From contig VGOW01000040.1 of the NCBI GenBank assembly GCA_016875735.1, positions 1 to 36,463 of the forward strand: a stretch of 36,463 bases of DNA, given 5' to 3'. Below are positions 18,630-36,463 of the stretch, in pieces. This DNA comes from Chloroflexota bacterium (lineage in GTDB: Bacteria; Chloroflexota; Anaerolineae; Anaerolineales; VGOW01). Below the pieces are notes generated by a model. The model was not told the DNA's origin and searched no databases. It saw nothing but the letters and a program-made list of their open reading frames with translations. Position numbers and translations under genes: made by a program. Position 1 is the first letter of the stretch. Every line of letters starts with the position of its first letter.

Positions 18630-19793
18630 CTACCCTCCCTTCACCTCTGTCCACAACCTATCGTAGAACACCAGCGCCTCTCCCACGTCGGAGATGGTGT
18701 GGCCGGCCGCCCACGCTTCGGGTGGAGTGTTGGTGATGGGGGAGTTGATGTAGGCATTGTAGAGATCGGGCTGATGCTCTTTGGCGTAATCGAGCGCGGC
18801 TCGATTGGGCATGGTGTATGGAAAATCGCGCAGCATGAGCCAGAAGGTATCACCCTGCAGTGAATAGTTGAGCCAGGCGTAGGCGGCGTCAGCGTGTGGC
18901 GCGTTCATCAGAAGCACGTAACCATCTTGAAACAGAAACGATCCTTCTTCGGGGAACACATATCGTATGGCGCCCTTTTCTCGAAAGGCCAGTTCAGCTT
19001 CGGCGTTCCACACGTAACCAATATCGGCGTCGCCGGCAATGAGCGCCGTCTTCGGGCTGTCGCTGTCGAAAAGTTTGACGGCCCTCACCAATTCCGCCAG
19101 TCTGGGCTTGATCGCTTCGAGGTCTGCCGGGGCGGTCGTGTTGGGGTCGCGCCCTTCGGCGAGGAGCGCAATGCCGATCACACTGCGCATATCGTCCACA
19201 AACACCATGCGCCCGGCAAAGTCGGGGTTCCACAAATCGTTCCACGAGCGCGGCGGCACGGGCACAGCCGCCGAATCGTACACGATGGCCTGCGTTCCGG
19301 CTTGATACGGCACAACATAGTCGCCACTCTCGTCTCCCGGCACGGGAAAGTAAGCCGGATCGATGTTGGCGAAATTTGGCAGCTTGCTCATATCGAGTTT
19401 TTGCGCCATCCCATTGCGGATCATTGCGCCGATGATGTAATCGCTGGGCTGAGCCAGATCATACGCCGCACCGCCCGCCGCCAGTTTAGCGTACATCTCC
19501 TCATTCGACGAAAACTCATCGCGGTTCACCTTGATACCGTACACCATCTCAAAACACTCAACGATGTCCTGCGGAATGTATTCCGTCCACACAAACAGAT
19601 TGAGCTCAGAGGACGACACGTCTATTCCCGGCGAGGGCTCCGGGCAGAGGAAGCCCGAACTGGCGACTCTGGCCGCCGCCGTCGGAGCGCCGCCGCCGCC
19701 GTTTACCGGCCCACGCACGCACGCGGCGGCCATAAGCCCCAAAACGATCAGCCCCGCAACGGCTCCCGGTTGCAGAAAGGAAAACCTGATCAT
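18630..19793 (-). CDS. PotD-like polyamine-binding lipoprotein, second copy
   Basis: A 387-residue substrate-binding lipoprotein of the spermidine/putrescine type. A signal segment ends in the lipobox MAAAC (Cys25), then a Gly-rich linker, then the binding fold: ELNLFVWTEYIPQDIVECFEMVYGIKV, SSNEEMYAKLAAGGAAYDL and TALIAGDADIGYVWNAEAE. It is a clear paralog of the protein encoded at 19893-21032, sharing long blocks such as NSPITNTPPE and RLWTEVKGG/QIWTEVKGG. ATG 19793 follows GGGAG. It lies last in the pot operon after a hairpin, and probably serves the same permease with a different ligand or affinity. Confidence 0.9.
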   Translation of the reverse strand: MIRFSFLQPGAVAGLIVLGLMAAACVRGPVNGGGGAPTAAARVASSGFLCPEPSPGIDVSSSELNLFVWTEYIPQDIVECFEMVYGIKVNRDEFSSNEEMYAKLAAGGAAYDLAQPSDYIIGAMIRNGMAQKLDMSKLPNFANIDPAYFPVPGDESGDYVVPYQAGTQAIVYDSAAVPVPPRSWNDLWNPDFAGRMVFVDDMRSVIGIALLAEGRDPNTTAPADLEAIKPRLAELVRAVKLFDSDSPKTALIAGDADIGYVWNAEAELAFREKGAIRYVFPEEGSFLFQDGYVLLMNAPHADAAYAWLNYSLQGDTFWLMLRDFPYTMPNRAALDYAKEHQPDLYNAYINSPITNTPPEAWAAGHTISDVGEALVFYDRLWTEVKGG

Positions 19794-19814
19794 TGAGCAT
19801 CTCCCATTAAGAGT

Positions 19815-19856
19815 AAACACCGAGCCGCCGCGATTTTCTGCGGATGCTCGGTGTTT
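19815..19856 (-). promoter_or_regulatory. stem-loop between the two potD-like genes
   Basis: AAACACCGAGC and GCTCGGTGTTT form an 11-bp stem, with an inner CCGC/GCGG stem around TTTTC. There is no T-tract after the hairpin on the minus strand, so a processing or mRNA-stability element that lowers or separates expression of the second copy is likelier than a full terminator. Confidence 0.6.
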
Positions 19857-19892
19857 GTCGTTGCTTGCTTCGCAACGTCGCCCGCTGCTGCC

Positions 19893-21032
19893 TCAGCCCC
19901 CTTTGACCTCCGTCCAAATCTGATCGTACAGCGGGGTGGCTTCGCCCACGTCGTTAATGCGGTGGCCGTTGGCAATTTCCTCCGGCGGCGTGTTGGTGAT
20001 GGGCGAATCCATGTAAGCGTTGTAAAGGTCGGGCTGGCTGGTTTTGGCATAGTCGAGCGCGGCTTTATTGGGGTTGGTGTACGGGAAGTCGCGCAACATC
20101 ATCCAGAACACATCACCCTGCATCGAATAGTTCAACCACGCATAGGCGGCGTCGAGGTGCGGAGCGCCGACCGGCATAGCATAATTGTCTTGCCACAGAA
20201 TCGCCCCTTCGGTCGGATATACGTATTGAATGGAGGGGTTCTCTTGTTGGGCGAGGAGGGCTTCGCCCGTCCACGTCATGCCCAAATCTGCGTCTCCGGC
20301 GATGAGCGCGGTCTTCGGGCTGTCGCTGTCAAAGAGTTTGATATTGGGCACGAGTTCGGCCAATTTGTTTTTGGCCTCGTCGAGCTGCGCCGGGTCTTTG
20401 GTATTCACATCGTAACCGAGCGTGAGCAGAACCATGCCGATGGTGGCGCGAGAGTCGTCGAGGAACACCATGCGCCCGGCGTATTCCGGCTTCCACAGAT
20501 CGGCCCATGAAGTCGGCACATTCTGCACTGCCGCAGTGTTGACTACGATGGCATCCGTTCCGGCTTGATATGGCAGGGTGTATTCGTTGCCGGGATCAAA
20601 GGAAAAGTTGAGATAGGTGGAATCAAAGTTCGCCATAATCGGCAGTTTGCTCTTGTCGAGTTTCTGCAAGAGCCCCTGCCGGATCATGAGGCTGACGATG
20701 TAATCGGTGGGCTGGACGAGATCGTAGGAGGCGCTGCCCGCCGAAAGTTTGGCGTACATTTCCTCGTTGCTCGAATACTCGTCGCGGTTCACTTTGATGC
20801 CGTACACCAATTCAAAGCACTCAATCGTGTCGGGCGGGATGTATTCCGTCCACACGAACAGGTTGACTTCCTGCGAGGTGACTTCCATTTTGGGTGACGG
20901 CTCCGGGCAGGCGAACCCGCTGGAAGTGGTTTTGGGGCCGGTGGGCGTTGGCGTTGCCCCCCCGCCGCAGGCGGCCACCACGAGGCCGACGGCGAGAACG
21001 GCGGCTAGGGTCTTCCATATTTTCGATGACAT
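19893..21032 (-). CDS. potD: PotD-like polyamine-binding lipoprotein
   Basis: A 379-residue substrate-binding lipoprotein. The signal peptide KIWKTLAAVLAVGLVVAAC ends in a lipobox (Cys22). A Thr/Pro spacer follows, then the extracellular binding fold with VNLFVWTEYIPPDTIECFELV, QPTDYIVSLMIRQGLLQKLD and SPKTALIAGDADLG. It delivers spermidine, putrescine or a similar amine to the permease encoded by the two genes upstream. The start is ATG 21032, with a strong AAAGGAGG. Forty-one bp separate it from the potC-like gene. The residues that fix the ligand were not evaluated. Confidence 0.92.
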   Translation of the reverse strand: MSSKIWKTLAAVLAVGLVVAACGGGATPTPTGPKTTSSGFACPEPSPKMEVTSQEVNLFVWTEYIPPDTIECFELVYGIKVNRDEYSSNEEMYAKLSAGSASYDLVQPTDYIVSLMIRQGLLQKLDKSKLPIMANFDSTYLNFSFDPGNEYTLPYQAGTDAIVVNTAAVQNVPTSWADLWKPEYAGRMVFLDDSRATIGMVLLTLGYDVNTKDPAQLDEAKNKLAELVPNIKLFDSDSPKTALIAGDADLGMTWTGEALLAQQENPSIQYVYPTEGAILWQDNYAMPVGAPHLDAAYAWLNYSMQGDVFWMMLRDFPYTNPNKAALDYAKTSQPDLYNAYMDSPITNTPPEEIANGHRINDVGEATPLYDQIWTEVKGG

Positions 21033-21073
21033 CTTTCTTTCCTCCTTTGGTTGAAGTGAAGCGTTGGCGTTGA

Positions 21074-21913
21074 TCAGGCTTCGCGGCTTTCGAGGCGTTG
21101 AGAGATGAACACGGCGATCAGCACGGTGAGTATCCACACGGTCGAAAGGGCGTTGACTTCGGGCGTGATGATGCGGCGAAGCAAACCGTACACGTAAATG
21201 GGCAGGGTGGTGGAGCCGGGCCCGTTGGTGAAGAAGGTGATGATGAAATCGTCGAGCGAGAGGGTGAAGGCCAGCAATGCGCCGGAAAGCACTCCGGGGG
21301 CGATGATGGGCAGAGTGACTCGCCAAAAGGTGACGATTTCGTTTGCGCCCAGATCCATGGCCGCCTCTTCCACTGCTTTATCGAATCCGTGCAGGCGCGC
21401 GCGCACCACGAGTGTGACGAAGGGAATGCTGAAAGCAATGTGCGAGACGATGACGGTGCCCAATCCCATCGAGAGTCGTTGAACGCCCGCCAGCCCGAAG
21501 GTGATGTTGATCCATGTGAAGAGGGCGCTGAACAAAACGAGGATGCCGATGCCCATCACGATTTCTGGAATCACGATGGGGATGTAGAGCGCCGCTTCCG
21601 AAAAGTTCCTCACCGGGAAACTGTATCGCTGAAGGGCGAGAGCGGCCATGGCGCCGATGGTGGTCGAAACGACCGTGGAGGTGAAGGCGATGGTGAGCGT
21701 GTTCTTGGCGGCGTCTAACACCTCGTCGTTCTCGAACAGTTTGCAGAACCAAAAGAACGGCCCGCACGGCCCTTGATTGACCACGCCCTCGAACACCACA
21801 TTCGTGCGCGAGGAGTTGAAGGCAAACACCACCAGCACCACGATGGGCGCATACAAGAAGAAATATACCGCTAGCGCGGAGAGGGCCACCAGAGGCGAGC
21901 GGCGGTTGCTCAT
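21074..21913 (-). CDS. potC: polyamine ABC transporter permease, PotC-like
   Basis: A 279-residue inner-membrane protein with six predicted helices. The cytoplasmic EAA loop that contacts the ATPase is [20 protein letters not shown] near residue 185. It pairs with the PotB-like subunit to form the channel. The ATG 21913 overlaps the TGA of the potB-like gene (ATGA), giving equal translation of the two subunits. Confidence 0.93.
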
Positions 21914-22812
21914 GCCGAGGCGATCTCCTCGCCAAAGCCGAACTTGCGGGTGTAAAAGATGGTGACGATGAGGGTCATGACCATGAGGATGATGGACGAG
22001 GCTGAGCCGAAGGCGGGGTCGCGCGCGTCGAGAAATTGACGCTGGATGAGGTTGCCCACGAGAATCACTTGCCGCCCGCCGAGAATGTCGGAGACGACGA
22101 ACGAGCCCATGACCGGGATGAAGACGAGAATGGTGCCGGCCACCACGCCGGGCATGGACAGGGGAAGGGTGACGCGGAGGAAGGTTCGCGCGGCGCTCGC
22201 GCCGAGATCGGCGGCGGCCTCATAGAGCGAGCCGTCAATTTTTTCCAGCGATGTGTAGATGGGCAGAATCATGAACGGCAAGAATTCGTACACCATGCCC
22301 ACCAGCACCGCGCCCGGCGAAGGGTAAAAATCGAACGGCTTGAACGGCAGATTGAAAAGCCCGGCCCCGAGTCCGAGCAAACCGTTGAGCACGCCCTGCG
22401 TGCGCAAGATCATGATCCATGCGTAGATGCGGATGACAAAGTTCGTCCACAGCGGGACGAGAATGAGGAAGAGCAAACTGTTGCGCCATTTGGCCGGGGC
22501 GCGGGCCACAAAATAGGACAGTGGGTAGGCCATGAGGATCACGACGACGGTGGTCTGAAACGCCAACGTGAGCGAGCGCATCAGGATGTTGAGATAAAGA
22601 TCGTCGAAGCCTTCGGGGGTGAAGCCGGCCAAGCGAAGATAATTGTCGAAGGTGAAAGTGTAGATCACGTTGCCGTCGGCGTCGCGGCGGCCAAAGGAAG
22701 TGACGACGGTGAGAAGCAGTGGGATGATCAGCAAGGCGATCATCCACAAGTTGGAGGGCAGGATGAGCAGAAAACCCTGAATGGTTTTGTTTTCGCGGAG
22801 TTTTTGGAACAT
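21910..22812 (-). CDS. potB: polyamine ABC transporter permease, PotB-like
   Basis: A 300-residue inner-membrane subunit with six predicted helices. Its EAA loop ([20 protein letters not shown], near residue 200) docks on the ATPase. A characteristic N-terminal segment [21 protein letters not shown] precedes the periplasmic region. The start ATG 22812 lies 68 bp after the potA-like gene, across a repeat-rich gap, and its ribosome-binding site is weak. Confidence 0.93.
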
Positions 22813-22837
22813 CGGCTAAATGCGGAATACGGAAGGC

Positions 22838-22887
22838 GGAATGATGAATTCGTCATTCGTCATTCACCTTTCACCCTTCATCATTCC
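22838..22887. repeat. inverted repeat and GAATGAC units at the potA stop codon
   Basis: GGAATGATGAA (22838-22848) and TTCATCATTCC (22877-22887) are an 11-bp inverted repeat that covers the stop codon of the potA-like gene. Between them are heptameric TCATTCG units. It has the same style as the heptamer repeats elsewhere in the window. Confidence 0.65.
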
Positions 22888-23978
22888 GTCAACACTCTCG
22901 CCGCTTCCGCCGCGAAGGACACGGAGACCACATTGCCTTCGGCGGCCAGCGGGCGCGAGCCGGGCGCGTTGTTTTGCTCACGCACGCGCACTTCGTGTCC
23001 GCCCATCAATTGCACGCCGTAATGAGTGTCGGTGCCAATGTACACCACGCTCACCACCCGCCCGTCGAATTTGTTGGCGGCCTCCCCCGCGTAATTGATG
23101 TGCATCTTCTCCGGGCGCACGGCCACACTCACCTCGGCGCCGCCCGTCAACTGCGTCTCCGATTCGGAGCGCACTCGCAAGCCGCCGCTCAATTCCACCT
23201 CCACCGCCCGGCCATTTTGCGCAACGACTTTGCCGTTCAGGAAACTCGTCTCGCCGATGAAGTCGGCCACGAATTTGCAATTGGGACGCTCGTAGATTTC
23301 ATTGGCGCCGCCGATCTGCAAAGCCACCCCGCCCGACATCACCGCGATGCGGTCGCTCATCGTCAACGCTTCCTCTTGATCGTGAGTGACGTACACAAAG
23401 GTGATGCCCACCTCGCGTTGAAGCTTCTTCAATTCCAACTGCATCTCTTTGCGCAACTTGAGATCGAGCGCGCCCAGCGGCTCGTCGAGCAGAAGCACTT
23501 CGGGGCGATTGACGAGCGCGCGGGCCAGCGCCACGCGCTGTTGCTGCCCGCCCGAAAGCTGCCGCGCCCGCCGCTTCTCGTAGCCGGGCAAGCGCACCAT
23601 TTCCAACGCCTGCTTCACTCGCTGATCGCGCTCGGCCTTCGGCACGCCCTTCATCTCCAACCCAAAGGCCACGTTCTCGCCAATCGTCATGTGCGGGAAG
23701 AGCGCATAGTTTTGGAAGACGGTGTTCACCGGGCGTTGAAACGGAGGCGTGCGCCCCATCGGCTTGCCATGAATAAGCACTTCGCCTTCGGTGGGCAGCT
23801 CGAAACCGGCGATCATCCGCAGTGAAGTCGTCTTGCCGCAGCCCGACGGCCCCAACATGGAAAAAAATTCCCCGTCCCGTATTTGCATCGTCACGTTGCG
23901 CACGGCGTTGACGACCTCACCAGACGGGGCCGGGAAACGCTTGGAAACCTCTCGGAGTTCTACAGCGAAGTTGGCCAT
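22881..23978 (-). CDS. potA: polyamine ABC transporter ATPase, PotA-like
   Basis: A 365-residue ATP-hydrolysing subunit. Walker A is GPSGCGKTT (43-51), the signature LSGGQQQR (141-148) and Walker B VLLLDEPLGALD, followed by the switch histidine in YVTHDQEEAL. A TOBE-type regulatory region fills the last about 90 residues. ATG 23978 follows GGAGGC. It is the first gene of the operon and has a strong divergent promoter 53 bp upstream. Confidence 0.95.
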   Translation of the reverse strand: MANFAVELREVSKRFPAPSGEVVNAVRNVTMQIRDGEFFSMLGPSGCGKTTSLRMIAGFELPTEGEVLIHGKPMGRTPPFQRPVNTVFQNYALFPHMTIGENVAFGLEMKGVPKAERDQRVKQALEMVRLPGYEKRRARQLSGGQQQRVALARALVNRPEVLLLDEPLGALDLKLRKEMQLELKKLQREVGITFVYVTHDQEEALTMSDRIAVMSGGVALQIGGANEIYERPNCKFVADFIGETSFLNGKVVAQNGRAVEVELSGGLRVRSESETQLTGGAEVSVAVRPEKMHINYAGEAANKFDGRVVSVVYIGTDTHYGVQLMGGHEVRVREQNNAPGSRPLAAEGNVVSVSFAAEAARVLTE

Positions 23979-24030
23979 TCGGCCTGCCTCCAACACGAAG
24001 TCGCGGAGCAAATGCCCGCGCCAAGGGTGG

Positions 24031-24059
24031 ATTGTACAAGAGTGATATGAGTTTGGCAA
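24031..24059 (-). promoter_or_regulatory. promoter of the pot operon
   Basis: On the minus strand TTGCCA (24059-24054), 17 bp, then TACAAT (24036-24031). Predicted start near 24024, giving a 46-base leader before ATG 23978. Confidence 0.7.
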
Positions 24060-24120
24060 CCAACGCATAACTTCATCGGCGGCAAAGCGGTGTATCATCG
24101 ATCACACGCCGGGGGTTGCC

Positions 24121-27126: not shown

Positions 27127-27155
27127 TTGCCCCCCGCCCCGCTTCTGTCTATAAA
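27127..27155 (+). promoter_or_regulatory. promoter of the hyu operon
   Basis: TTGCCC (27127-27132), 17 bp, then TATAAA (27150-27155). Predicted start near 27162, only about 15 bases before ATG 27177, so there is little room for a ribosome-binding site. Confidence 0.65.
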
Positions 27156-27176: not shown

Positions 27177-28724
27177 ATGTATCGAATAGGCATTGACGTT
27201 GGCGGAACGAATACCGACGCGGCCATCCTGCGTGGCCGCGAAGTGGTGGGCTGGTATAAGCACGCCACCACGCCGGAGGTTACTTCAGGCATTGTCGGCG
27301 CGCTCTCGGGCGCGCTCGAGTCTACCCATATGGGCCGCGCCGACGTGGGCGCGGTGATGATCGGCACCACGCATTTCACCAACGCCGTCGTCCAGCGGCG
27401 GGAACTCAGCCGCGTCGCCGTGTTTCGCCTGTGCGGCCCCGCCACCCATTCGCTTCTCCCTATGGTGGATTGGCCTGTGAGTCTGCGAGAAATCGTCGTC
27501 GGACATGTAGCCCTTTTGCCCGGCGGCGCCGAGTTCGACGGCCAACCGATCACCCCCTTCGACGAAGCCTCCGTGCGCGAAGCGTGCCGCCGCGCGCGCG
27601 ATCTCGGCCTTGAATCCGTTGCCGTGAGCAGTGTCTTCTCCCCGGTCAATCCCGGGCATGAGTTGCTCACCGCCGAGATCATCCGGGCAGAAATGCCCGG
27701 CGCAGCCATCAGCCTGTCGCATGAGATCGGCCGGCTCGGCATGTTGCAACGCGAAAACGCCGCCATCATGAACGCCTGCCTGCACGTCCTCGGCAGGAAA
27801 ACCATCGCCGCGTTCCGCGCCTCGCTCACCGACTTGGGTTTGCGATGCCCGCTTTATCTGGCGCAAAACGACGGCACGCTGATGAGCGCCGACTTCGCCG
27901 AAAGATTCCCGGTGTTCACCTTCGCCTCCGGCCCCACCAATTCCATGCGCGGCGCGGCGTTTCTATCCGGCCTGCGTGAAGCGGTCGTGGTTGACATCGG
28001 AGGAACGACCACCGATATTGGCGCGTTGGCGCACGGTTTTCCGCGCGAAGCATCGGTTGAAGTCGAGGTTGGCGGCGTGCGCACCAACTTCCGAATGCCG
28101 GACGTATTTTCGTTCGGCTTGGGCGGCGGCAGTCTGGTCACGGGCGAGGGCGCGACTCTTCAAGTGGGCCCTCTCTCGGTGGGATACGAACTGACCGCCC
28201 GCGGCCGAGTCTTCGGCGGCGACACGTTGACTGCCACCGACATTGCCGTCGCCGGCGGGCGCGCCTCACTGGGCGAGAGTAGCCGCGTGGCAGATCTATC
28301 CGGGTCATTCATCGCCGATGCGCTGGCCTATATGCAGAAACGAGTTGAAGAGGCCATTGACCAGATGAAGCTGAGCCGCGATCCGGTTCCAGTTATTTTG
28401 GTTGGGGGCGGGAGCATTCTGGTCAACGAGCAACTGGCCGGGGCGTCGCAAGTCCTCCGCCCGCCGCACTATCAGGTAGCGAACGCGGTGGGCGCTGCCA
28501 TCGCTCAAATCTCAGGCGAAGTGGATCGGGTCGTGTCGCTGTCGGAAGTCGGTCGAGAGGAAGCATTGTCAGTGGCGAAAAAGGAAGCCGTTGAGCGGGC
28601 GGTTGCCGCCGGGGCCGAGGCCTCCACAATCCAAATCGTGGATGTCGAAGATATTCCGCTGGCATACCTGCCGAGCAACGCGGTTCGAATCCGCGTCAAA
28701 GTTGCGGGGGATTTGGCATTATGA
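27177..28724 (+). CDS. hydantoinase/oxoprolinase family protein, short form
   Basis: A 515-residue protein of the actin-like ATPase fold. Its first phosphate motif is GIDVGGTNTDAA (5-16) and the second VVDIGGTTTDIGA (271-283), followed by FSFGLGGGSLV (311-321) and VILVGGGSI (406-414). These are the marks of the HyuA/oxoprolinase A family, but it lacks about 160 residues compared with the full HyuA encoded at 29830. Short forms often sit next to DUF917 genes. It probably activates a cyclic amide with ATP. ATG 27177 follows a promoter closely and has no strong ribosome-binding site. It is coupled to the next gene by an ATGA overlap. Confidence 0.85.
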   Translation: MYRIGIDVGGTNTDAAILRGREVVGWYKHATTPEVTSGIVGALSGALESTHMGRADVGAVMIGTTHFTNAVVQRRELSRVAVFRLCGPATHSLLPMVDWPVSLREIVVGHVALLPGGAEFDGQPITPFDEASVREACRRARDLGLESVAVSSVFSPVNPGHELLTAEIIRAEMPGAAISLSHEIGRLGMLQRENAAIMNACLHVLGRKTIAAFRASLTDLGLRCPLYLAQNDGTLMSADFAERFPVFTFASGPTNSMRGAAFLSGLREAVVVDIGGTTTDIGALAHGFPREASVEVEVGGVRTNFRMPDVFSFGLGGGSLVTGEGATLQVGPLSVGYELTARGRVFGGDTLTATDIAVAGGRASLGESSRVADLSGSFIADALAYMQKRVEEAIDQMKLSRDPVPVILVGGGSILVNEQLAGASQVLRPPHYQVANAVGAAIAQISGEVDRVVSLSEVGREEALSVAKKEAVERAVAAGAEASTIQIVDVEDIPLAYLPSNAVRIRVKVAGDLAL

Positions 28725-29830
28725 ACGAATGGTCGCTCACCGAACTGGATTTGGAATACATTGCGTTGGGCGCGGCGATTCTGGGAACGGGCGGCGGCGG
28801 GAATGTTTATCTCGGAAAACTGCGCGGCTGGGAGCAACTGCGCGCCGGACGCCGCATCCGAATCATTTCGCCGGAGGCATTGCAGGACGATGATCTGGTG
28901 ATCGCCGTCGGCGGGATGGGCGCGCCCACCGTGGGCTTCGAGAAATTCGAGAAGGGCGATGAGTGTTATCGCGCCGTGCGCGCCCTCGAGCGGGCGGTTG
29001 GCAAAAGGGCGGTGGCGTTGATGACCGATGAGATAGGCGGCTCGAACGCCATCGAGCCGATGATCGCCGCGGCCCAGGCCGATCTGCCTGTTGTGGATGT
29101 GGACGGGATGGGGCGCGCTTTCCCGGAATTGCAGATGAACACCTTTTTCATTTACGGCGCTCCACCCGCTCCGGGCGCGCTCTGCGATGAGAAGGGCAAC
29201 ACGGTTGTCTTTACCGAAGCCACTTCTCCTGTATGGTTGGAGAAATTAGCGCGCGCCGGAACGATTGCGATGGGTTGCACCGCCGCCTTCGCCCTTCCGC
29301 CGATCACCGGCGGTCAGTTGAAGGCGTGGGGCGTGAAGCACACTGTGAGCCAGGCCTGGCGTTTGGGCGCGGCGGTGATTCGGGCGCGGGCCGAAAAGCG
29401 CGATCCGGTGGAAGCCATTCTCAAACACGAACACGGCCAACTGCTCTTTCGTGGCAAGATCATGGATGTGAAACGCTGGACGACCGGCGGGTTTGCGCGC
29501 GGCAAACTGGAGATGGACGGCCTGGCCGATGACGCGGGACGCGCGCTCGATATCGAATTTCAGAACGAAAACCTGATCGCGCGTCTGGATGGCGAAATCA
29601 TCTGCGCCGTGCCCGATCTGATCTGCATCGTGGATGCCGAATCGGGGCGCCCGATCTCGACCGAAGAAACCCGTTACGGCCTGCGCGTTGCGGTGCTTGG
29701 TTTGCCCGCCACGCCGCTCTTCCGCACCCCTGAGGCGCTGGCGGTCGTCGGCCCGCGCGCCTTCGGTTACGATCTCGATTACCAACCGCTCGGCGAATAC
29801 GTCATGCCCGAGCCAAAGGTGAAACCCTGA
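28721..29830 (+). CDS. DUF917 protein (S-methyl thiohydantoin desulfurase family)
   Basis: A 369-residue protein matching the DUF917 family, now named for S-methyl thiohydantoin desulfurase (from memory). Marks are the Gly-rich opening YIALGAAILGTGGGG (13-27), IAVGGMGAPTVGFEK, the PVVDVDGMGRAFPELQ segment, and a C-terminal domain beginning near 260 (KIMDVKRWTTGGFARG...). The family is thought to act on sulfur-substituted hydantoins, and it commonly occurs beside HyuA and HyuB genes. Starting and ending bases overlap both neighbours (ATGA and TGATG), so the four genes are translationally linked. The exact substrate is inference. Confidence 0.85.
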   Translation: MNEWSLTELDLEYIALGAAILGTGGGGNVYLGKLRGWEQLRAGRRIRIISPEALQDDDLVIAVGGMGAPTVGFEKFEKGDECYRAVRALERAVGKRAVALMTDEIGGSNAIEPMIAAAQADLPVVDVDGMGRAFPELQMNTFFIYGAPPAPGALCDEKGNTVVFTEATSPVWLEKLARAGTIAMGCTAAFALPPITGGQLKAWGVKHTVSQAWRLGAAVIRARAEKRDPVEAILKHEHGQLLFRGKIMDVKRWTTGGFARGKLEMDGLADDAGRALDIEFQNENLIARLDGEIICAVPDLICIVDAESGRPISTEETRYGLRVAVLGLPATPLFRTPEALAVVGPRAFGYDLDYQPLGEYVMPEPKVKP

Positions 29831-31866
29831 TGACCAATCAACGACTCGCAATTGATGTGGGCGGCACGTTTGTGGATTTTGTGTTGTTCGACGAGGCCAG
29901 CGGAGAGATCTGCATTGAAAAGGTGTCGTCGGGCGGCAAGTTGGAGGAGCGATTCTTCGAGGGCATCGAACGCCTCGGCCTCAGTTTGACCGATCTGGCG
30001 ATGATCGTGCACGGCTCGACAACGGTCATCAATACCATTGTGCAGGAGAAGGGCGCGCGCACTGGATTGATCACCACGCAGGGATTCCGCGATGTGTTGG
30101 AATTGGGGCGCGGCAACCGCCCGGAAATCTACAACCTATTCTATCGCCCTCCCGCCCCGCTGGTGCCGCGCTACCTGCGTTACGAAGTGCCCGAGCGATT
30201 GAATCGGCGCGGCGAAACGCTGATCCCGTTAGACGAAGCGGCGGCGCGGCAGGTGATCGCTCAACTCAAGGAACAGGGTGTGCTGGGGATCGCCATTTGT
30301 TTTCTTCACTCCTATGCCAATCCCGCGCATGAACGGCGACTGGCCGAACTCGTCGCGGAAATCTACCCCGAAGCGCACGTCAGCATCTCTTCGGATATCG
30401 TGCGCGAGTGGCGCGAATTCGAGCGCGCCTCCACCACGGTCCTCAACACCTACGTCAAACCGAAAATGGCGGGGTATCTGTCAGCGTTGCAGAGCGGCTT
30501 GAAAGATCGTCACTACACCGGTACGCTCAACATCATGCAATCGTCTGGCGGCATGACTTCGGGACTCGCCGCGCAAAACGCTCCAATCCGCACGTTGGAA
30601 TCCGGCCCGGCGGGAGGGGTGATCGGTGCAGCGGCATTGGGCGCGAAGTTGGGTTTTGCGAATTTGGTCGCCGCTGATGTGGGCGGCACGACCTTTGATG
30701 TGGCGATGATCCATCAGAACCGCCCGCTCGAAAAAGCGGAGACCGCCGTCAATCGCCGCCCGGTTCTGCAGCCGACGCTGGACATCATTTCCATCGGCGC
30801 GGGCGGCGGAAGCATCGCCTGGTTGGATGCAGAAGGCGGATTACGGGTCGGCCCGAAAAGCGCCGAGGCGGCGCCGGGTCCCGCGTGCTTTGGGCTGGGC
30901 GGCGCAGAGCCAACCGTGACCGACGCTCAATTAATTCTTGGCTACCTCGACCCGCAGTATTATCTGGGCAAACGCATGACGCTCGACCGGGCCGCCGCCG
31001 AACGGGCCATCGAAACCAAGATCGCTCAGCCTCTCAATCTGCCCACGACCGAGGCGGCGCAGGGCATTCTGCGACTCGCCGCCGCGAACATGTCGTACGC
31101 CATCCGCAACATCACCATCGAGCGCGGCCACGACCCGCGCGAATTCAGTTTGGTGTGTTTCGGCGGCGGCGGCGGGTTGTTCGCCGCGGCCCTCATGCGG
31201 GAACTGGAAATGGCGCGCGCCATTGTGCCGGTCAACCCCGCCACATTCTCTGCCTGGGGGTTGCTCAACGCCGATTATCGCGAAGACCTCTCGCGCACGG
31301 TGGTCAAACCCCTGAAGGAACTGAGGCTGGAGGAACTGGCCGGTGTCATCTCTCAAATGGAGGCCGAAGCCACCGAGCATTTTGATTCCCATCACATTCA
31401 GGCCGCAAACCGCGCTGTTGAATTGTTCGCCGACTTGCGCTATCTTGGGCAGGAACATACGGTGCGCGTTCCGCTCCAGGCCGACGATCTGAAAGATCCG
31501 CTCTTTGCTTCTCTTCGAACGCGCTTCGATGACCTGCATGAAAAAGCCTACGCTCACGCCCTGCCTCATCTGTCGGTAGAGTTCGTGCATGTGCGGCTCT
31601 CGCTCATCGGGCTGACTCAAAAGCCCGCCATTTTGGAAATGCCCAAAGGCAACAAAGGAGGAGCGCAGAAAGCGATCCGGAAAGTGATCCTGATGGGCAA
31701 CGATATAATGGACTGCCCTATCTACGACCGCCCCCTGCTCGCGGCGGGCGAACGACTCGACGGCCCGGCCATAGTCGAAGAGTGGACTTCGACCACCCTC
31801 CTCCTGCCCGGCCAAACATTGGAAGTTGATCCTTACGGGAACTTGATTCTTCATGCCAGCCATTGA
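29830..31866 (+). CDS. hyuA: hydantoinase/oxoprolinase A subunit
   Basis: A 678-residue ATP-binding subunit of N-methylhydantoinase, 5-oxoprolinase or acetone carboxylase-type enzymes. Phosphate motifs are AIDVGGTFVDF (7-17) and ADVGGTTFDVAM (282-293); others are IMQSSGGM (235-242), LESGPAGGV (256-264), GAGGGS (323-328) and GPKSAEAAPGPACFG (341-355). It phosphorylates or activates the ring carbonyl for hydrolysis with the B subunit. The first codon overlaps the stop of the DUF917 gene, and the last 14 bases overlap hyuB. 5-Oxoprolinase and hydantoinase cannot be told apart from motifs. Confidence 0.93.
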   Translation: MTNQRLAIDVGGTFVDFVLFDEASGEICIEKVSSGGKLEERFFEGIERLGLSLTDLAMIVHGSTTVINTIVQEKGARTGLITTQGFRDVLELGRGNRPEIYNLFYRPPAPLVPRYLRYEVPERLNRRGETLIPLDEAAARQVIAQLKEQGVLGIAICFLHSYANPAHERRLAELVAEIYPEAHVSISSDIVREWREFERASTTVLNTYVKPKMAGYLSALQSGLKDRHYTGTLNIMQSSGGMTSGLAAQNAPIRTLESGPAGGVIGAAALGAKLGFANLVAADVGGTTFDVAMIHQNRPLEKAETAVNRRPVLQPTLDIISIGAGGGSIAWLDAEGGLRVGPKSAEAAPGPACFGLGGAEPTVTDAQLILGYLDPQYYLGKRMTLDRAAAERAIETKIAQPLNLPTTEAAQGILRLAAANMSYAIRNITIERGHDPREFSLVCFGGGGGLFAAALMRELEMARAIVPVNPATFSAWGLLNADYREDLSRTVVKPLKELRLEELAGVISQMEAEATEHFDSHHIQAANRAVELFADLRYLGQEHTVRVPLQADDLKDPLFASLRTRFDDLHEKAYAHALPHLSVEFVHVRLSLIGLTQKPAILEMPKGNKGGAQKAIRKVILMGNDIMDCPIYDRPLLAAGERLDGPAIVEEWTSTTLLLPGQTLEVDPYGNLILHASH

Positions 31867-33529
31867 TCCCATCACAACGCAGGTCATTCGCAACGCTCTC
31901 AAAGCCGCCGCCGACGAAATGCAGATCAGCCTCGTCAAGACGGCGCACAACCCGCTGATCTATGAAGTGCATGACTTTGGCGTGGTGCTCACCGATCATC
32001 TTGGGCAGATACTCGCCGAAGGCTCGGGCTTGCCCGGCTTTCTCGGCTGTTTGCCCTCGGCCATTGTCAGCGGACTCAAAGTTGTCGGCGCGGAAAACTT
32101 TTCCGACGGCGACGTGATTCTCACCAACGAACCCGACGACACCGGCACGCACTTGAGCGATGTGGTCGTATACATGCCGATCCTTTATAAAGGAAGGCTG
32201 GTGGCGTTCTCCAGCGTAATGGCGCACTGGGCGGATGTTGGCGGAGTGACCCCCGGCGGCTGGTGCCCCGATTCAACGGACGTTCATCAGGAGGGGATGA
32301 TCTTCTCGCACCTCAAACTCTATGAGGGCGGCAAATTGAACACCACCCTCGAGCGCATGATCCTCAAAAACGTGCGCTTCCCGGAACTGGTGCACGGCGA
32401 CATGAATGCCATGATCGCCGCCTGTCACACGGGCGCGCGCCGTTATCAAGCGTTGTGTGATCGCTTTGGCGCCGATGTGTTGCAGGCCAGCATGGAGGCC
32501 GTATTCAACCAATCCGAGCAGATGATGCGCCGCAAGGTCGCCGAGATCCCCGACGGCATCTATTCCGCCGAGACGTGGCTGGATCACGATGGCATCGAGT
32601 TGGACAAGCCGCGCAAGATTAAAGTGACGATCACAGTCAAGGGCGAAGAGATGATCATGGATTGGACGGGTTCAAGCGAAGTCGCCAGCGGGCCGATCAA
32701 TCATCCTTTTGTCGAGACGCGAGCATTGGGATACTGTCTGCTCAAGTCGCTCACCGCGCCTTTCGACCCGATGAATCAGGGGCACTTACGCCCGCTCACC
32801 GTGACCGCGCCGCCCAACACGGTGGTCAGCCCCGTGTATCCCGCGCCGTGCGATTCTTACGGTTACGTCGGTGAGATGATTATTCAACTCATCGCGCGGG
32901 CGTTGTCGCAGGCAATCCCCGAACGGTGCCCGGCTTGCTCTTACCAGATGTTTGGACCGTACTTCTTCCGCACTGATCCGCGACACGGCGAGCCGTTCAT
33001 CTTTATCGATCCGGTGGATGGCGGCGGCGGCGCGTTCCCTCACGCCGACGGCCCCAGCGCGTTGATCTTCGTTGGCGACGGCGATTGCCCCAACACACCC
33101 GCTGAAATCATCGAAACGCGTTACCCGCTGCTGGTGCGGCGCTATGCGCTTAATCTCGAAGGCGCGGGGAAGGGCAAATATCGCGGCGGCTTCGGCGTCA
33201 TCCGTGATTATGAGATGCTCGAAGACAACATCCTGATGCAGTTGATGAATGAGAACACGCTCTATCCGCCCTGGGGACTCTTTGGCGGCGACCAGTCGGG
33301 CGTGAGCAAAGCCATTGTGTGGGAGGGCACCGATCATGAGCAGGTGTTGACGCGGCGCATATCCTATTTTGGGCCGCTGCACAAAGGTGACCGGGTGAGC
33401 GCCCGCACGACGGGCGGCGGCGGCTGGGGCGACCCGAAAGAACGCGACCCGGAGCTGGTCAAGAACGATGTGCTGAACGGTTTTCTATCCGCGGCGGAAG
33501 CCGAGAAGATTTATGGCGTGAAGGTGTGA
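31853..33529 (+). CDS. hyuB: hydantoinase/oxoprolinase B subunit
   Basis: A 558-residue metal-dependent hydrolase subunit that opens the activated ring. Conserved positions are DDTGTHLSD (about 95-103), AHWADVGG (124-131) with probable metal ligands His100, Asp103, His125 and Asp128, and PINHPFVETR. The Gly-rich segments DPVDGGGGAFPHADG and GAGKGKYRGGFG, and the closing TTGGGGWGDPKERDPELV, are also seen. Typical length for the family. ATG 31853 begins inside the hyuA stop region (14-bp overlap), giving coupled synthesis of the subunits. Confidence 0.93.
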   Translation: MPAIDPITTQVIRNALKAAADEMQISLVKTAHNPLIYEVHDFGVVLTDHLGQILAEGSGLPGFLGCLPSAIVSGLKVVGAENFSDGDVILTNEPDDTGTHLSDVVVYMPILYKGRLVAFSSVMAHWADVGGVTPGGWCPDSTDVHQEGMIFSHLKLYEGGKLNTTLERMILKNVRFPELVHGDMNAMIAACHTGARRYQALCDRFGADVLQASMEAVFNQSEQMMRRKVAEIPDGIYSAETWLDHDGIELDKPRKIKVTITVKGEEMIMDWTGSSEVASGPINHPFVETRALGYCLLKSLTAPFDPMNQGHLRPLTVTAPPNTVVSPVYPAPCDSYGYVGEMIIQLIARALSQAIPERCPACSYQMFGPYFFRTDPRHGEPFIFIDPVDGGGGAFPHADGPSALIFVGDGDCPNTPAEIIETRYPLLVRRYALNLEGAGKGKYRGGFGVIRDYEMLEDNILMQLMNENTLYPPWGLFGGDQSGVSKAIVWEGTDHEQVLTRRISYFGPLHKGDRVSARTTGGGGWGDPKERDPELVKNDVLNGFLSAAEAEKIYGVKV

Positions 33530-33615
33530 TCGCTATCTAAGGAGGTCATATTGAATTGACTGTTTTGATATAGAAGGACAAACTATCTCAATCAATCACT
33601 CGGAGGAGACCTGCC

Positions 33616-35226
33616 ATGAAACCCAAACTGTTCTCTGCATTCAGCCTTGTGCTGGCGCTGGCTATCGCCTTGGCGGCCTGTAGCGGAACCCCGCCGGCCA
33701 CACAACCGCCCGCTTCGGCCACGGAGGCCCCGGCTCCCACGGCGGCTCCCGCCCAGCCGTCTGTCCTCACCATCGCCAATTCCACCACCTTCCCCGATAT
33801 CGACCCGAGCACCTCGTTCTCCAACGACAGCGCGGTGACCTCCAACATCTACGAAACGCTCACTCGTTACAACCCGCCCGGAAGCAAGGATGTGCTCAGC
33901 CCGCAACTCGCTACCAGTTGGGAATCCTCGGAGGACAGCCTGACCTGGACGTTCCACCTGCGCCAGGGCGTCAAGTTCCACGACGGCGAGCCGTTCAACT
34001 CCGCCGCTGTCAAGTTCTCAGTCGAACGCACCAAGACTCTCAACGGCGGCGCAGCCTGGATCTGGGGCGCGGTCAACAGCATCGAAACGCCCGATGATTA
34101 CACCGTCGTCTTCCACCTCGATTACGCCACCCCGCTTGACCTGATCGCTTCGTCTGGGTATGCGGCGTGGATGATCAGCCCCGGCGCAAAAGACAAGGAT
34201 GGCGCGTGGTTCAACGCCGGCCACGACGCGGGCACAGGCCCCTACACCATCGAGTCGTATGAGCCGGGCCAGCGCGTCATCTTGACTCGGTTCGACGATT
34301 ATTGGGGCGGCTGGAAAGCCGGCCAGTTCGATAAAGTAGTGATCGAGGTTGTCGAAGATCCAACGGTGCGCCAGCAGAAGATCGAATCCGGCGAAGCGGA
34401 TTGGACGATGGAACTTGCCACCGAGAACCTGGCTTCTGTCGGAAACAATCCCGACGTGAAGGTTGTGGTTAACCCATCCTTCCAGAATCTGGTCGGATTG
34501 CTCAACACTCAGAAGCCCCCGCTGGATGATCCAAAAGTCCGCCAGGCGCTTTCCTACAGTTTCCCATATGAGGTATTTATCAACACCGCTATGAGCGGAT
34601 ACGCCACGCAAGCGCGCGGCGTCATTCCTGCCGGGATGTACGGTTCCGACGAATCACTCTTCCAATACCCCTTCGACCTCGACAAGGCGAAATCTCTGCT
34701 GACAGAAGCCGGCCACCCCGATGGAGGTTTCGAGTTATCGATGACCTATGTCACCGGCAATACGGTGGAACAACAAGCCGGTGAATTGTGGAAAGCCGAA
34801 CTCGCCAAACTCGGCATCACTTTGAACCTCCAACCGATGGCCTGGGAAGCGCAGTGGGATCTGGGCAAGGGTGATCCGGCCAACGCGCAGGATGTGTTCG
34901 TCATGTATTGGTGGCCCGCTTACGTAACGCCCTACGACTTCCTCTTCAACATGTTCCACACGGAGGAGCAGCCTCTCTTCAATTTGGGCTACTACCGCAA
35001 TGGGGACTTTGACACATTGATCGACGACGCCAACGCCCTATCCGGAGGTGATAAGGCTAAGGCCGAGTCCATGTTCCAGGAGGCCTCGAAGATGCTGGTG
35101 GATGACGCCGCGTCGCTCTTCATCTTCGACCAGAGCAACATTCACATTGTCCGCGCCGATCTCAAAGGTTACGTGGACAATCCCGCCTACTCGCACGTTG
35201 TGTTCGCCTACCAGCTTTCCCGCTAA
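33616..35226 (+). CDS. ABC transporter substrate-binding lipoprotein (family 5)
   Basis: A 536-residue peptide/oligopeptide-type binding protein. The signal peptide ends in LAAC (Cys22), then a Pro/Ala/Thr linker. The domain starts with SVLTIANSTTFPDIDPSTSF and carries the family signature around RQGVKFHDGEPFNSAAVKFSVER, followed by GTGPYTIESYEPGQRVILTR. Family members bind di- and oligopeptides, nickel, opines and other small amides. Co-location with hyuA/hyuB suggests a cyclic amide or peptide-derived compound. ATG 33616 follows CGGAGGAG. The gap from hyuB is 86 bp and includes an orphan AAGGAGG at 33539-33545. Confidence 0.92.
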   Translation: MKPKLFSAFSLVLALAIALAACSGTPPATQPPASATEAPAPTAAPAQPSVLTIANSTTFPDIDPSTSFSNDSAVTSNIYETLTRYNPPGSKDVLSPQLATSWESSEDSLTWTFHLRQGVKFHDGEPFNSAAVKFSVERTKTLNGGAAWIWGAVNSIETPDDYTVVFHLDYATPLDLIASSGYAAWMISPGAKDKDGAWFNAGHDAGTGPYTIESYEPGQRVILTRFDDYWGGWKAGQFDKVVIEVVEDPTVRQQKIESGEADWTMELATENLASVGNNPDVKVVVNPSFQNLVGLLNTQKPPLDDPKVRQALSYSFPYEVFINTAMSGYATQARGVIPAGMYGSDESLFQYPFDLDKAKSLLTEAGHPDGGFELSMTYVTGNTVEQQAGELWKAELAKLGITLNLQPMAWEAQWDLGKGDPANAQDVFVMYWWPAYVTPYDFLFNMFHTEEQPLFNLGYYRNGDFDTLIDDANALSGGDKAKAESMFQEASKMLVDDAASLFIFDQSNIHIVRADLKGYVDNPAYSHVVFAYQLSR

Positions 35227-35239
35227 CTATTTCTAACGT

Positions 35240-35273
35240 TTCCCCTGCCTGCCGCAATGAGCAGGCAGGGGAA
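35240..35273 (+). promoter_or_regulatory. stem-loop covering the permease ribosome-binding site
   Basis: A 13-bp perfect stem: TTCCCCTGCCTGC (35240-35252) pairs with GCAGGCAGGGGAA (35261-35273), loop CGCAATGA. The right arm contains AGGGGAAG, the only ribosome-binding-site-like sequence before the permease ATG at 35285. It probably stabilises the abundant binding-protein mRNA and reduces permease translation. Confidence 0.7.
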
Positions 35274-35284
35274 GACTTCGCTTG

Positions 35285-36301
35285 ATGGCTGTTTACCTTC
35301 TGCGACGATTGGCGCTGGCCGCGCTCGTCATCATCAGTGTTTCGGCGGTGACGTTCGTCGTTGCGCGGGTGATCCCCTCCGACCCGGCGGCGCTGTACGC
35401 CGGGCAGCGCCCAACCGCCGATCAGATTGAAGCGGCGCGTGAACGTCTCGGACTCGATCAACCGCTTTACGCCCAATACATTCGTTTCCTGGGCGACATC
35501 CTCCAGGGCGATCTGGGAACATCCTACAAAACCAAGCATCCCATTCTGTCCGATATCAGAACATTCCTGCCGGCCACGCTCGAACTGGTCATCGTCAGCA
35601 CGTTGATGGCGCTCCTCGTCGGCGTTCCGCTGGGAGTGTTCGCCGGCGCCAGACGTGGTGGAGGCTTCGATCAAGTCACCCGCATCGCCTCCATCGCCGG
35701 AGTATCGATCCCGACTTTTTGGCTGGCGCTGATTTTTCAGTTATTCTTTTTTGGCGCCCTCAAACTTCTTCCACTTTCCTCGCGGATGTCGAATAGCGTT
35801 GCTCTGTTCAATACCTTTCCCACCATCACCGGCTTCTATCTGATCGACTCTCTGCTGGCGGGAAACCTCGTCGCCTGGCGCGACGCCGCCTGGCATATCC
35901 TCCTGCCCGCCTTCACCCTCGCTACCTACCCCATCAGCCTGACCTTGCGCATGACGCGCGCGGCGATGGTCGAGACGCTCTCCGAAAAATACATCACTGC
36001 CGCGCGCGCGCAGGGATTGCCCGAACACGATGTCCTCTTCCGCTACGCGTTGAAGAATGCCATTATCCCCACTCTCACCGTGCTTGGGCTATCCTTCGCT
36101 TATTCGCTCACCGGCGCCTTCCTTATCGAAGTGATCTTCTCGTGGCCCGGGCTTGGAAAGTATGTCACCGACGCCATTCTCAATGTGGATTTTCCGGTGA
36201 TCGTTTCCGCCACATTAATCGTTACCGTGTTCTACGTTTTCATCAATCTGATCGTTGACATCATTCAGGCCGTTCTCGATCCGCGGGTGGCGTTGCGATG
36301 A
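35285..36301 (+). CDS. ABC transporter permease, DppB-like
   Basis: A 338-residue inner-membrane protein with six predicted helices of the dipeptide/oligopeptide permease B type. The N-terminal MAVYLLRRLALAALVIISVS is followed by the extracellular region QRPTADQIEAARERLGLDQPLY, typical of DppB. The EAA-like loop is EKYITAARAQGLPEHDVLFRYAL (about 235-257). ATG 35285 is chosen; TTG 35282 in the same frame is an alternative. It overlaps the following permease gene by ATGA at 36298-36301. Confidence 0.92.
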   Translation: MAVYLLRRLALAALVIISVSAVTFVVARVIPSDPAALYAGQRPTADQIEAARERLGLDQPLYAQYIRFLGDILQGDLGTSYKTKHPILSDIRTFLPATLELVIVSTLMALLVGVPLGVFAGARRGGGFDQVTRIASIAGVSIPTFWLALIFQLFFFGALKLLPLSSRMSNSVALFNTFPTITGFYLIDSLLAGNLVAWRDAAWHILLPAFTLATYPISLTLRMTRAAMVETLSEKYITAARAQGLPEHDVLFRYALKNAIIPTLTVLGLSFAYSLTGAFLIEVIFSWPGLGKYVTDAILNVDFPVIVSATLIVTVFYVFINLIVDIIQAVLDPRVALR

Positions 36302-36463
36302 CCATTCTGGCCCGCTGGTTTGGCGCGCCCTTTGCATCCGACTCCATCCCTGCCCGCCTGCGCCATGACCCTCTGGCAATATTCAGTTTTCTCGTCGTGT
36401 TGACCCTCATCCTGGCCGCCGCTTTCGCCCCGCTCCTGACTTCCCGCGCCGCCGAAGGACTCG
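36298..36463 (+). CDS. ABC transporter permease, DppC-like (5' end only)
   Basis: The first 55 codons run off the window. MTILARWFGAPF is followed by RLRHDPLAIFSFLVVLTLILAAAFAPLL, a typical N-terminal segment (basic cytoplasmic stretch, then the first helix) of DppC-type permeases. The ATGA overlap with the DppB-like gene supports the start. The ATPase genes of the transporter would be expected further right. Confidence 0.88.
   Translation, partial: MTILARWFGAPFASDSIPARLRHDPLAIFSFLVVLTLILAAAFAPLLTSRAAEGL

Follow-up and report, generated by a model that had tools for sequence, protein, structure and literature searches.

The 36,463-nucleotide stretch analysed here (the window), which is the entire contig G000:C40 (VGOW01000040.1) of a Chloroflexota bacterium, carries at its right end an operon encoding, in this order, a short HyuA, a DUF917 protein, a long HyuA, HyuB, a family 5 binding lipoprotein, the permease DppB and the start of DppC, inside whose gene the window ends. 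The short HyuA and DUF917 genes form a standing pair, and the importer goes with this pair; the resulting unit of enzymes and importer turns up in bacteria that differ widely. The operon may serve the ATP-driven uptake and cytoplasmic opening of a small, neutral amide ring; a cyclic dipeptide (2,5-diketopiperazine) is the likeliest substrate and a 5-substituted hydantoin the next, a proposal to which we give about an even chance.

The short HyuA-DUF917 pair, its importer and the added HyuA/HyuB genes

Short HyuA genes were located by their own sequence in 301 genomes of the phylum. The 23 short-HyuA matches fall in 18 genomes, and DUF917 lies on the same contig for 22 of the 23 matches, at a distance of up to 200 base pairs (bp) for 20 and up to 3 kb for 21; the sole short HyuA without a DUF917 gene on its contig is on a different one, 8.7 kb long (G215:C208). 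All 18 genomes having short HyuA also have DUF917, and short HyuA is missing from 10 of the 28 genomes having DUF917. The genome of the window has three DUF917 genes, each adjoining a short HyuA; its remaining long HyuA genes are on different contigs. Gene neighbourhoods were compared at 100 loci, namely the best 80 of 502 confirmed DUF917 relatives (the named loci) and 20 genome loci, with genes called by codon usage, a procedure that can miss or invent small genes. Short HyuA is present at 78 of the 80 named loci, and of 79 short HyuA genes encoding more than 430 amino acids (aa), 70 have DUF917 and three have HyuB as a neighbouring gene. The pair is spread over Chloroflexota, Pseudomonadota, Actinomycetota, Bacillota, Deinococcota and archaea. 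Of the operon as a whole, the closest relative (L065) has short HyuA, DUF917 (78% identity) and the binding protein (74-75% identity), with a ROK-family gene between the first two. On another contig of the genome of the window (L034, G000:C81, 2774-13167), two further short HyuA-DUF917 pairs are arranged around a Pot-type (spermidine/putrescine-like) importer, and an M19 dipeptidase gene adjoins one of these pairs. At five loci (L098, L116, L120, L132 and L035) one short HyuA is followed by three to four DUF917 genes in tandem.

The association with the importer was examined with the binding protein as the anchor, a choice free of the bias that DUF917 as anchor would bring, in plasmids and in the class to which the genome belongs. 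The binding protein matches 27 plasmid records, 12 of which were examined. At all ten examined loci where it is 39-58% identical (H1-H8, H10 and H11), short HyuA and DUF917 are directly upstream of the binding protein, and DppB, DppC and two ATPases are downstream; an Lrp/AsnC regulator stands in front of the cassette in eight. The other two examined loci, with a binding protein of 35.6% identity, carry an amidase instead. Relatives at 43-48% identity (10 loci) are without DUF917, and a CN-hydrolase cluster gene is near the ATPases in eight of them (the Pfam name was tested on three). Among 298 sampled genomes of the class, the binding protein is carried at 60-66% identity by 11 besides the own genome, in clusters with DUF917 (7/11), an Asp/Glu/hydantoin racemase (7/11) and both CDOA and CDOB of cyclodipeptide oxidase (CDO; 4/11); the contigs of G403, G350 and G468 end early, and G538 has no DUF917, racemase or CDO. 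A first-pass annotation, made from the letters of the window, had tied the importer to the enzymes and had named beforehand, as the contrary case, ABC genes recurring without hyuA, hyuB or DUF917; the plasmid loci show these genes recurring with the short HyuA-DUF917 pair, and the tie stands. The gene order recurs for this part of the operon; long HyuA and HyuB were found at none of the ten plasmid loci and are thus outside the recurrent unit. On two Shinella plasmids (L190, 2636-5348; L195), genes for an M55 metallopeptidase, a P1 peptidase and a D-amino-acid transaminase are divergent from the AsnC-HyuA-DUF917-Dpp cassette. Since plasmids of Shinella, Ensifer and Sinorhizobium carry the cassette in its minimal form, it is open to testing in strains that grow.

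All three HyuA domains are found in the long protein, whereas the short HyuA has no Pfam match to Hydant_A_C, the C-terminal domain of the long protein, in agreement with the two kinds of HyuA distinguished by the first-pass annotation. The phosphate-site Asp pair is kept in both (Asp9/Asp283 in the long and Asp7/Asp273 in the short HyuA), and the short HyuA is predicted to be an ATP-binding subunit of the ASKHA type. In HyuB the metal tetrad Asp41, His100, Asp103 and His125 is intact, as in caprolactamase CapB, whose activity needs an Asp-His-Asp-His tetrad according to the available text of PMC8453981. PF05378, PF01968 and PF02538, which together with the catalytic residues mark the HyuA-HyuB family, are all present. 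Its sequence marks the long HyuA/HyuB pair as a full ATP-dependent amidohydrolase akin to caprolactamase and N-methylhydantoinase, although its scores are below every equivalog cut-off.

HyuB occurs at eight and long HyuA at six of the 80 named loci, and HyuB at three of the 20 genome loci. The HyuB proteins of L065, L101, L107, L041, L042 and L044 are 49-95% identical to one another and only 37-38% identical to that of the window, so the window probably obtained its long HyuA/HyuB pair separately; at an E-value of 1e-160, the window HyuB finds no relative other than itself in the 298 class genomes. The long HyuA/HyuB add-on has been recruited repeatedly, which suggests that the two enzyme units act on related substrates.

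DUF917 and the thiohydantoin desulfurases

The DUF917 protein of the window exceeds the Pfam cut-offs of 27 for both PF06032 and PF20906. Against the two desulfurase models it reaches 104.8 bits (NF058529, cut-off 440) and 100.1 bits (NF058532, cut-off 450), whereas plasmid proteins that pass these cut-offs score 611, 604, 597 and 555 bits. In a FastTree tree of 83 DUF917 sequences, thinned from 173 at an identity of at least 72%, seven desulfurase-type sequences are separated with support 100 from 74 sequences that include the window protein; short HyuA is within four genes of 56 of these 74. The signature residues differ as well. The window protein has GRAFPE where desulfurases have RAHPT, and the His of RAHPT, found in five of five desulfurase sequences, is replaced by Phe in 52 of 57 HyuA-linked sequences (Phe134 in the window). 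Glu104, Asp128 and Glu174 are present in 57 of 57 and Glu136 in 56 of 57 HyuA-linked sequences and in none of the five desulfurases, which have Gln/His (104), Val/Ala (128), Thr (136) and Ser (174) at these positions.

The neighbours tell the same difference. Of eight plasmid loci of the desulfurase type that were examined, six carry an annotation; urocanate hydratase is listed at four of these six and HyuA at none. One urocanate hydratase, when tested, exceeded the cut-off for thiourocanate hydratase, whereas the single urocanate hydratase relative in the genome of the window is below it. By scores, clade, signature residues and neighbours, desulfurase identity of the window DUF917 was rejected. 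It is thus very improbable that DUF917 desulfurises a thiohydantoin from ergothioneine breakdown and that HyuA/HyuB opens the resulting hydantoin, a route for which the Pfam family name S-Me-THD speaks. The substrate inferred in the first-pass annotation, a thiohydantoin or ergothioneine product, does not survive these comparisons, in which DUF917 attains about a quarter of the desulfurase cut-offs, and the family carries the name of an activity against which the evidence for this protein speaks. In the open PMC literature, no paper was found for 'thiohydantoin desulfurase'. The ergothioneine pathway reportedly ends with metal hydrolases (Beliaeva et al. 2021). On a Salinigranum plasmid (L203), an archaeal desulfurase-like DUF917 below the cut-offs accompanies a Dpp importer, DUF1177, AroM, an aminopeptidase and a racemase.

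Proposed function and alternatives

In CapAB, the HyuA subunit activates the ring amide with ATP, and the activated ring moves to the metal site of HyuB for hydrolysis, as described in the available part of PMC8453981. A similar mode is proposed for the long HyuA/HyuB pair because of its likeness to caprolactamase, N-methylhydantoinase and 5-oxoprolinase: after uptake of the cyclic amide by the DppABCDF-type ABC importer, long HyuA would activate the ring amide with ATP and HyuB would hydrolyse it at its metal site. In the second unit, short HyuA may activate the ring and DUF917 may stand in for HyuB, as the linkage of their genes suggests. That these two constitute a two-part ATP-dependent cyclic-amide hydrolase is put forward tentatively, and we consider it possible but on the whole doubtful. 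The predicted fold of DUF917 matches 2o3i (Z 40.6, root-mean-square deviation 2.2 over 335 residues) and that of short HyuA matches HyuA-type subunits (Z 24-31 over 490-503). HyuB is not among the matches listed in two structure searches with DUF917, which is no evidence that such a match is absent.

A cyclic dipeptide is favoured because close relatives of the importer occur with CDO, because CDO occurs at loci of the pair itself and because the binding protein is without the DppA anchors. An association of CDO clusters with DUF917, with hydantoin racemases and with ABC importers for dipeptides is described in the accessible sections of PMC11055893, which is, among the open PMC papers naming DUF917, the only one found to discuss function, as far as their available text goes; CDOB was taken as PF19585 following the same portion of that paper. 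At L044 the gene order is short HyuA, DUF917 twice, a fused CDOA-CDOB, long HyuA and HyuB, and L041, L042 and L134 show part of this order with a relative of the fused CDO at the same place. In E. coli DppA, Arg383 and Asp436 clamp the charged ends of the dipeptide, according to the part of PMC12136057 available; the aligned window binding protein has neither of the clamping residues named there, since Ala435 takes the place of Asp436 and the Arg383 position falls in a gap. Elsewhere, the Asp436 position is occupied by Asp (L104, L193 and L200) or, in Rhizobiaceae-type binding proteins, by Thr. In CDO clusters, a protein of about 347 aa adjoins DUF917 and CDOA (L179:16771-17811; L183:11671-12711); the two examples tested have no Pfam match, and genes of nearly this length are beside DUF917 in L180, L181 and L187.

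Several observations weigh against the proposed uptake and opening of a cyclic dipeptide. The 11 class relatives of the importer are all without short HyuA, and their DUF917 is a different one (about 30% identity); their binding proteins also keep Asp at the DppA Asp436 position. The genome of the window has no CDOB match (PF19585) in a search that was positive in five of five control genomes. HyuA-DUF917 units elsewhere occur with importers of the Pot and TRAP types and with cytosine/allantoin-type permeases, and the racemases, PucR regulators and molybdenum hydroxylases near such units fit hydantoins or ureides equally. Finally, AlphaFold2 gave no confident docking of the joined short HyuA-DUF917 chains, in two runs, one construct per gene order, made without a positive control. 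Three alignments in which DUF917 sequences were matched to the HyuA half, in part or completely, were excluded from folding. The mean predicted local distance difference test (pLDDT) values were 88.8 and 86.0 and the predicted template modelling (pTM) scores 0.62 and 0.58, the latter by our estimate about the level of two undocked domains; in these models the two folds look sound and docking is unsupported.

A route that opens a 5-substituted hydantoin, or another ring derived from a purine or pyrimidine, and yields an N-carbamoyl amino acid or a comparable compound accounts for several of these neighbours, and we regard it as a serious though rather unlikely alternative. Asp/Glu/hydantoin racemases occur at seven of the 80 named and five of the 20 genome loci, PucR regulators at six and molybdenum hydroxylase subunits at 11 of the 100, and a cytosine/allantoin-type permease cluster at seven loci; moreover, DUF917 proteins are suggested to be hydantoinases in the consulted portion of PMC11055893, and N-methylhydantoinase is the nearest Protein Data Bank (PDB) entry to long HyuA/HyuB. 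However, the operon contains no carbamoylase or dihydropyrimidinase, and the CDO linkage indicates cyclic dipeptides. Import of small linear peptides, which might contain D-residues or end in a pyroglutamyl group whose lactam the HyuA enzymes would open, is unlikely: the divergent peptidase and transaminase genes of the two Shinella plasmids, the M19 dipeptidase gene near DUF917 on contig C81 and the Asp kept by the class relatives are in its favour, but those three peptide genes stand together at only two loci and the window binding protein has neither dipeptide anchor. Least probable of all is a ketone operon in which long HyuA/HyuB would be an ATP-dependent carboxylase of the acetone or acetophenone type. 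Such carboxylases belong to the same superfamily, and the acetophenone carboxylase models give 341 and 124 bits, yet their cut-offs are 1500, the caprolactamase models score higher (509 and 269), no gene for a third carboxylase subunit is in the operon and the importer is of the peptide type.

If the cyclic-dipeptide proposal and the teamwork of short HyuA with DUF917 prove true, the two proteins would add a new branch to the oxoprolinase superfamily, one that occurs in bacteria as well as archaea together with dedicated importers, and would explain the breakdown of cyclic dipeptides.

Operon layout and comparison with known systems

The features of the operon are collected in Table 1. Short HyuA and DUF917 overlap by ATGA, DUF917 and long HyuA by TGATG, long HyuA and HyuB by 14 bp, and DppB and DppC by ATGA. 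The coordinates and overlaps of the four-gene set, lipoprotein and permeases were re-derived, with DppC as its first 55 codons, and gene order and overlaps agree with the single operon described in the first-pass annotation, whose family names likewise exceed the Pfam cut-offs. The lipoprotein and permease part of a family 5 importer (an SBP_bac_5 lipoprotein encoded in a single operon with two permeases) is present, DppC counting by its 55 codons. Of the 'complete uptake and degradation route' of that annotation, the contig thus shows the part up to the start of DppC; both ATPases follow in all ten examined plasmid relatives. The 'single well-formed promoter' of that annotation is not confirmed: a promoter scanner finds no site in front of the operon, and the site seen by eye, with 9/12 matches, is of a quality reached by 21 sites in the window when both strands are counted. 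The hairpin between the lipoprotein and DppB genes is strong and perhaps sets the ratio of lipoprotein to permease expression. Upstream of the operon, on the minus strand (18630-24098), is a spermidine/putrescine-like ABC cluster, named from its translations, whose two binding proteins resemble each other; this kind of importer is also found beside HyuA-DUF917 pairs elsewhere.

Table 1. Positions in the window of the operon genes and accompanying sites
Feature	Positions	Strand	Product or length	Basis and remarks
Promoter-like site	27127..27155	+	TTGCCC-17-TATAAA	By eye, 9/12 matches; weak
Short HyuA	27177..28724	+	515 aa	PF05378 132.6 bits, PF01968 117.6 bits
DUF917 / S-Me-THD family protein	28721..29830	+	369 aa	PF06032 194 bits, PF20906 242 bits
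Long HyuA, N-methylhydantoinase / caprolactamase alpha type	29830..31866	+	678 aa	Pfam and NCBIfam models
HyuB	31853..33529	+	558 aa	Pfam/NCBIfam models, metal tetrad
Family 5 solute-binding lipoprotein	33616..35226	+	536 aa, lipobox Cys22	Pfam/NCBIfam models
Hairpin between lipoprotein and DppB genes	35239..35274	+	14-bp stem	-30.3 kcal/mol, z -4.76, no T run
DppB-type permease	35285..36301	+		Alternative start TTG at 35282 gives 339 aa
DppC-type permease	36298..36463	+	First 55 codons, ended by contig	45% over 33 aa to L052 DppC, E 3e-5

Among known systems, caprolactamase CapAB of Pseudomonas jessenii (6yra) aligns end to end with long HyuA and HyuB and has the ATP-site Asp pair and the metal tetrad in common with them; the CapA and CapB models give the window pair the scores quoted above, under their equivalog cut-off of 1000, and the window pair differs in being accompanied by short HyuA, DUF917 and an importer. 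The best PDB match is N-methylhydantoinase (7hk5, 9h03; 449 bits with long HyuA and 318 bits with HyuB), which, unlike the separate proteins of the window, is a single fused chain of 1288 aa and has Gln where the window HyuB has His125. The desulfurases belong to the same Pfam family as the window DUF917, with which they share 22-27% identity, and differ from it in clade, signature and neighbours. With E. coli DppABCDF, as presented in the available text of PMC12136057, the window shares a family 5 binding protein and DppB/DppC permeases, but not the two clamping residues of DppA. The closest class relatives of the window importer sit in CDO clusters of the kind described in the accessible part of PMC11055893; the DUF917 of these clusters is of another clade and without short HyuA, while the genome of the window is without CDO.

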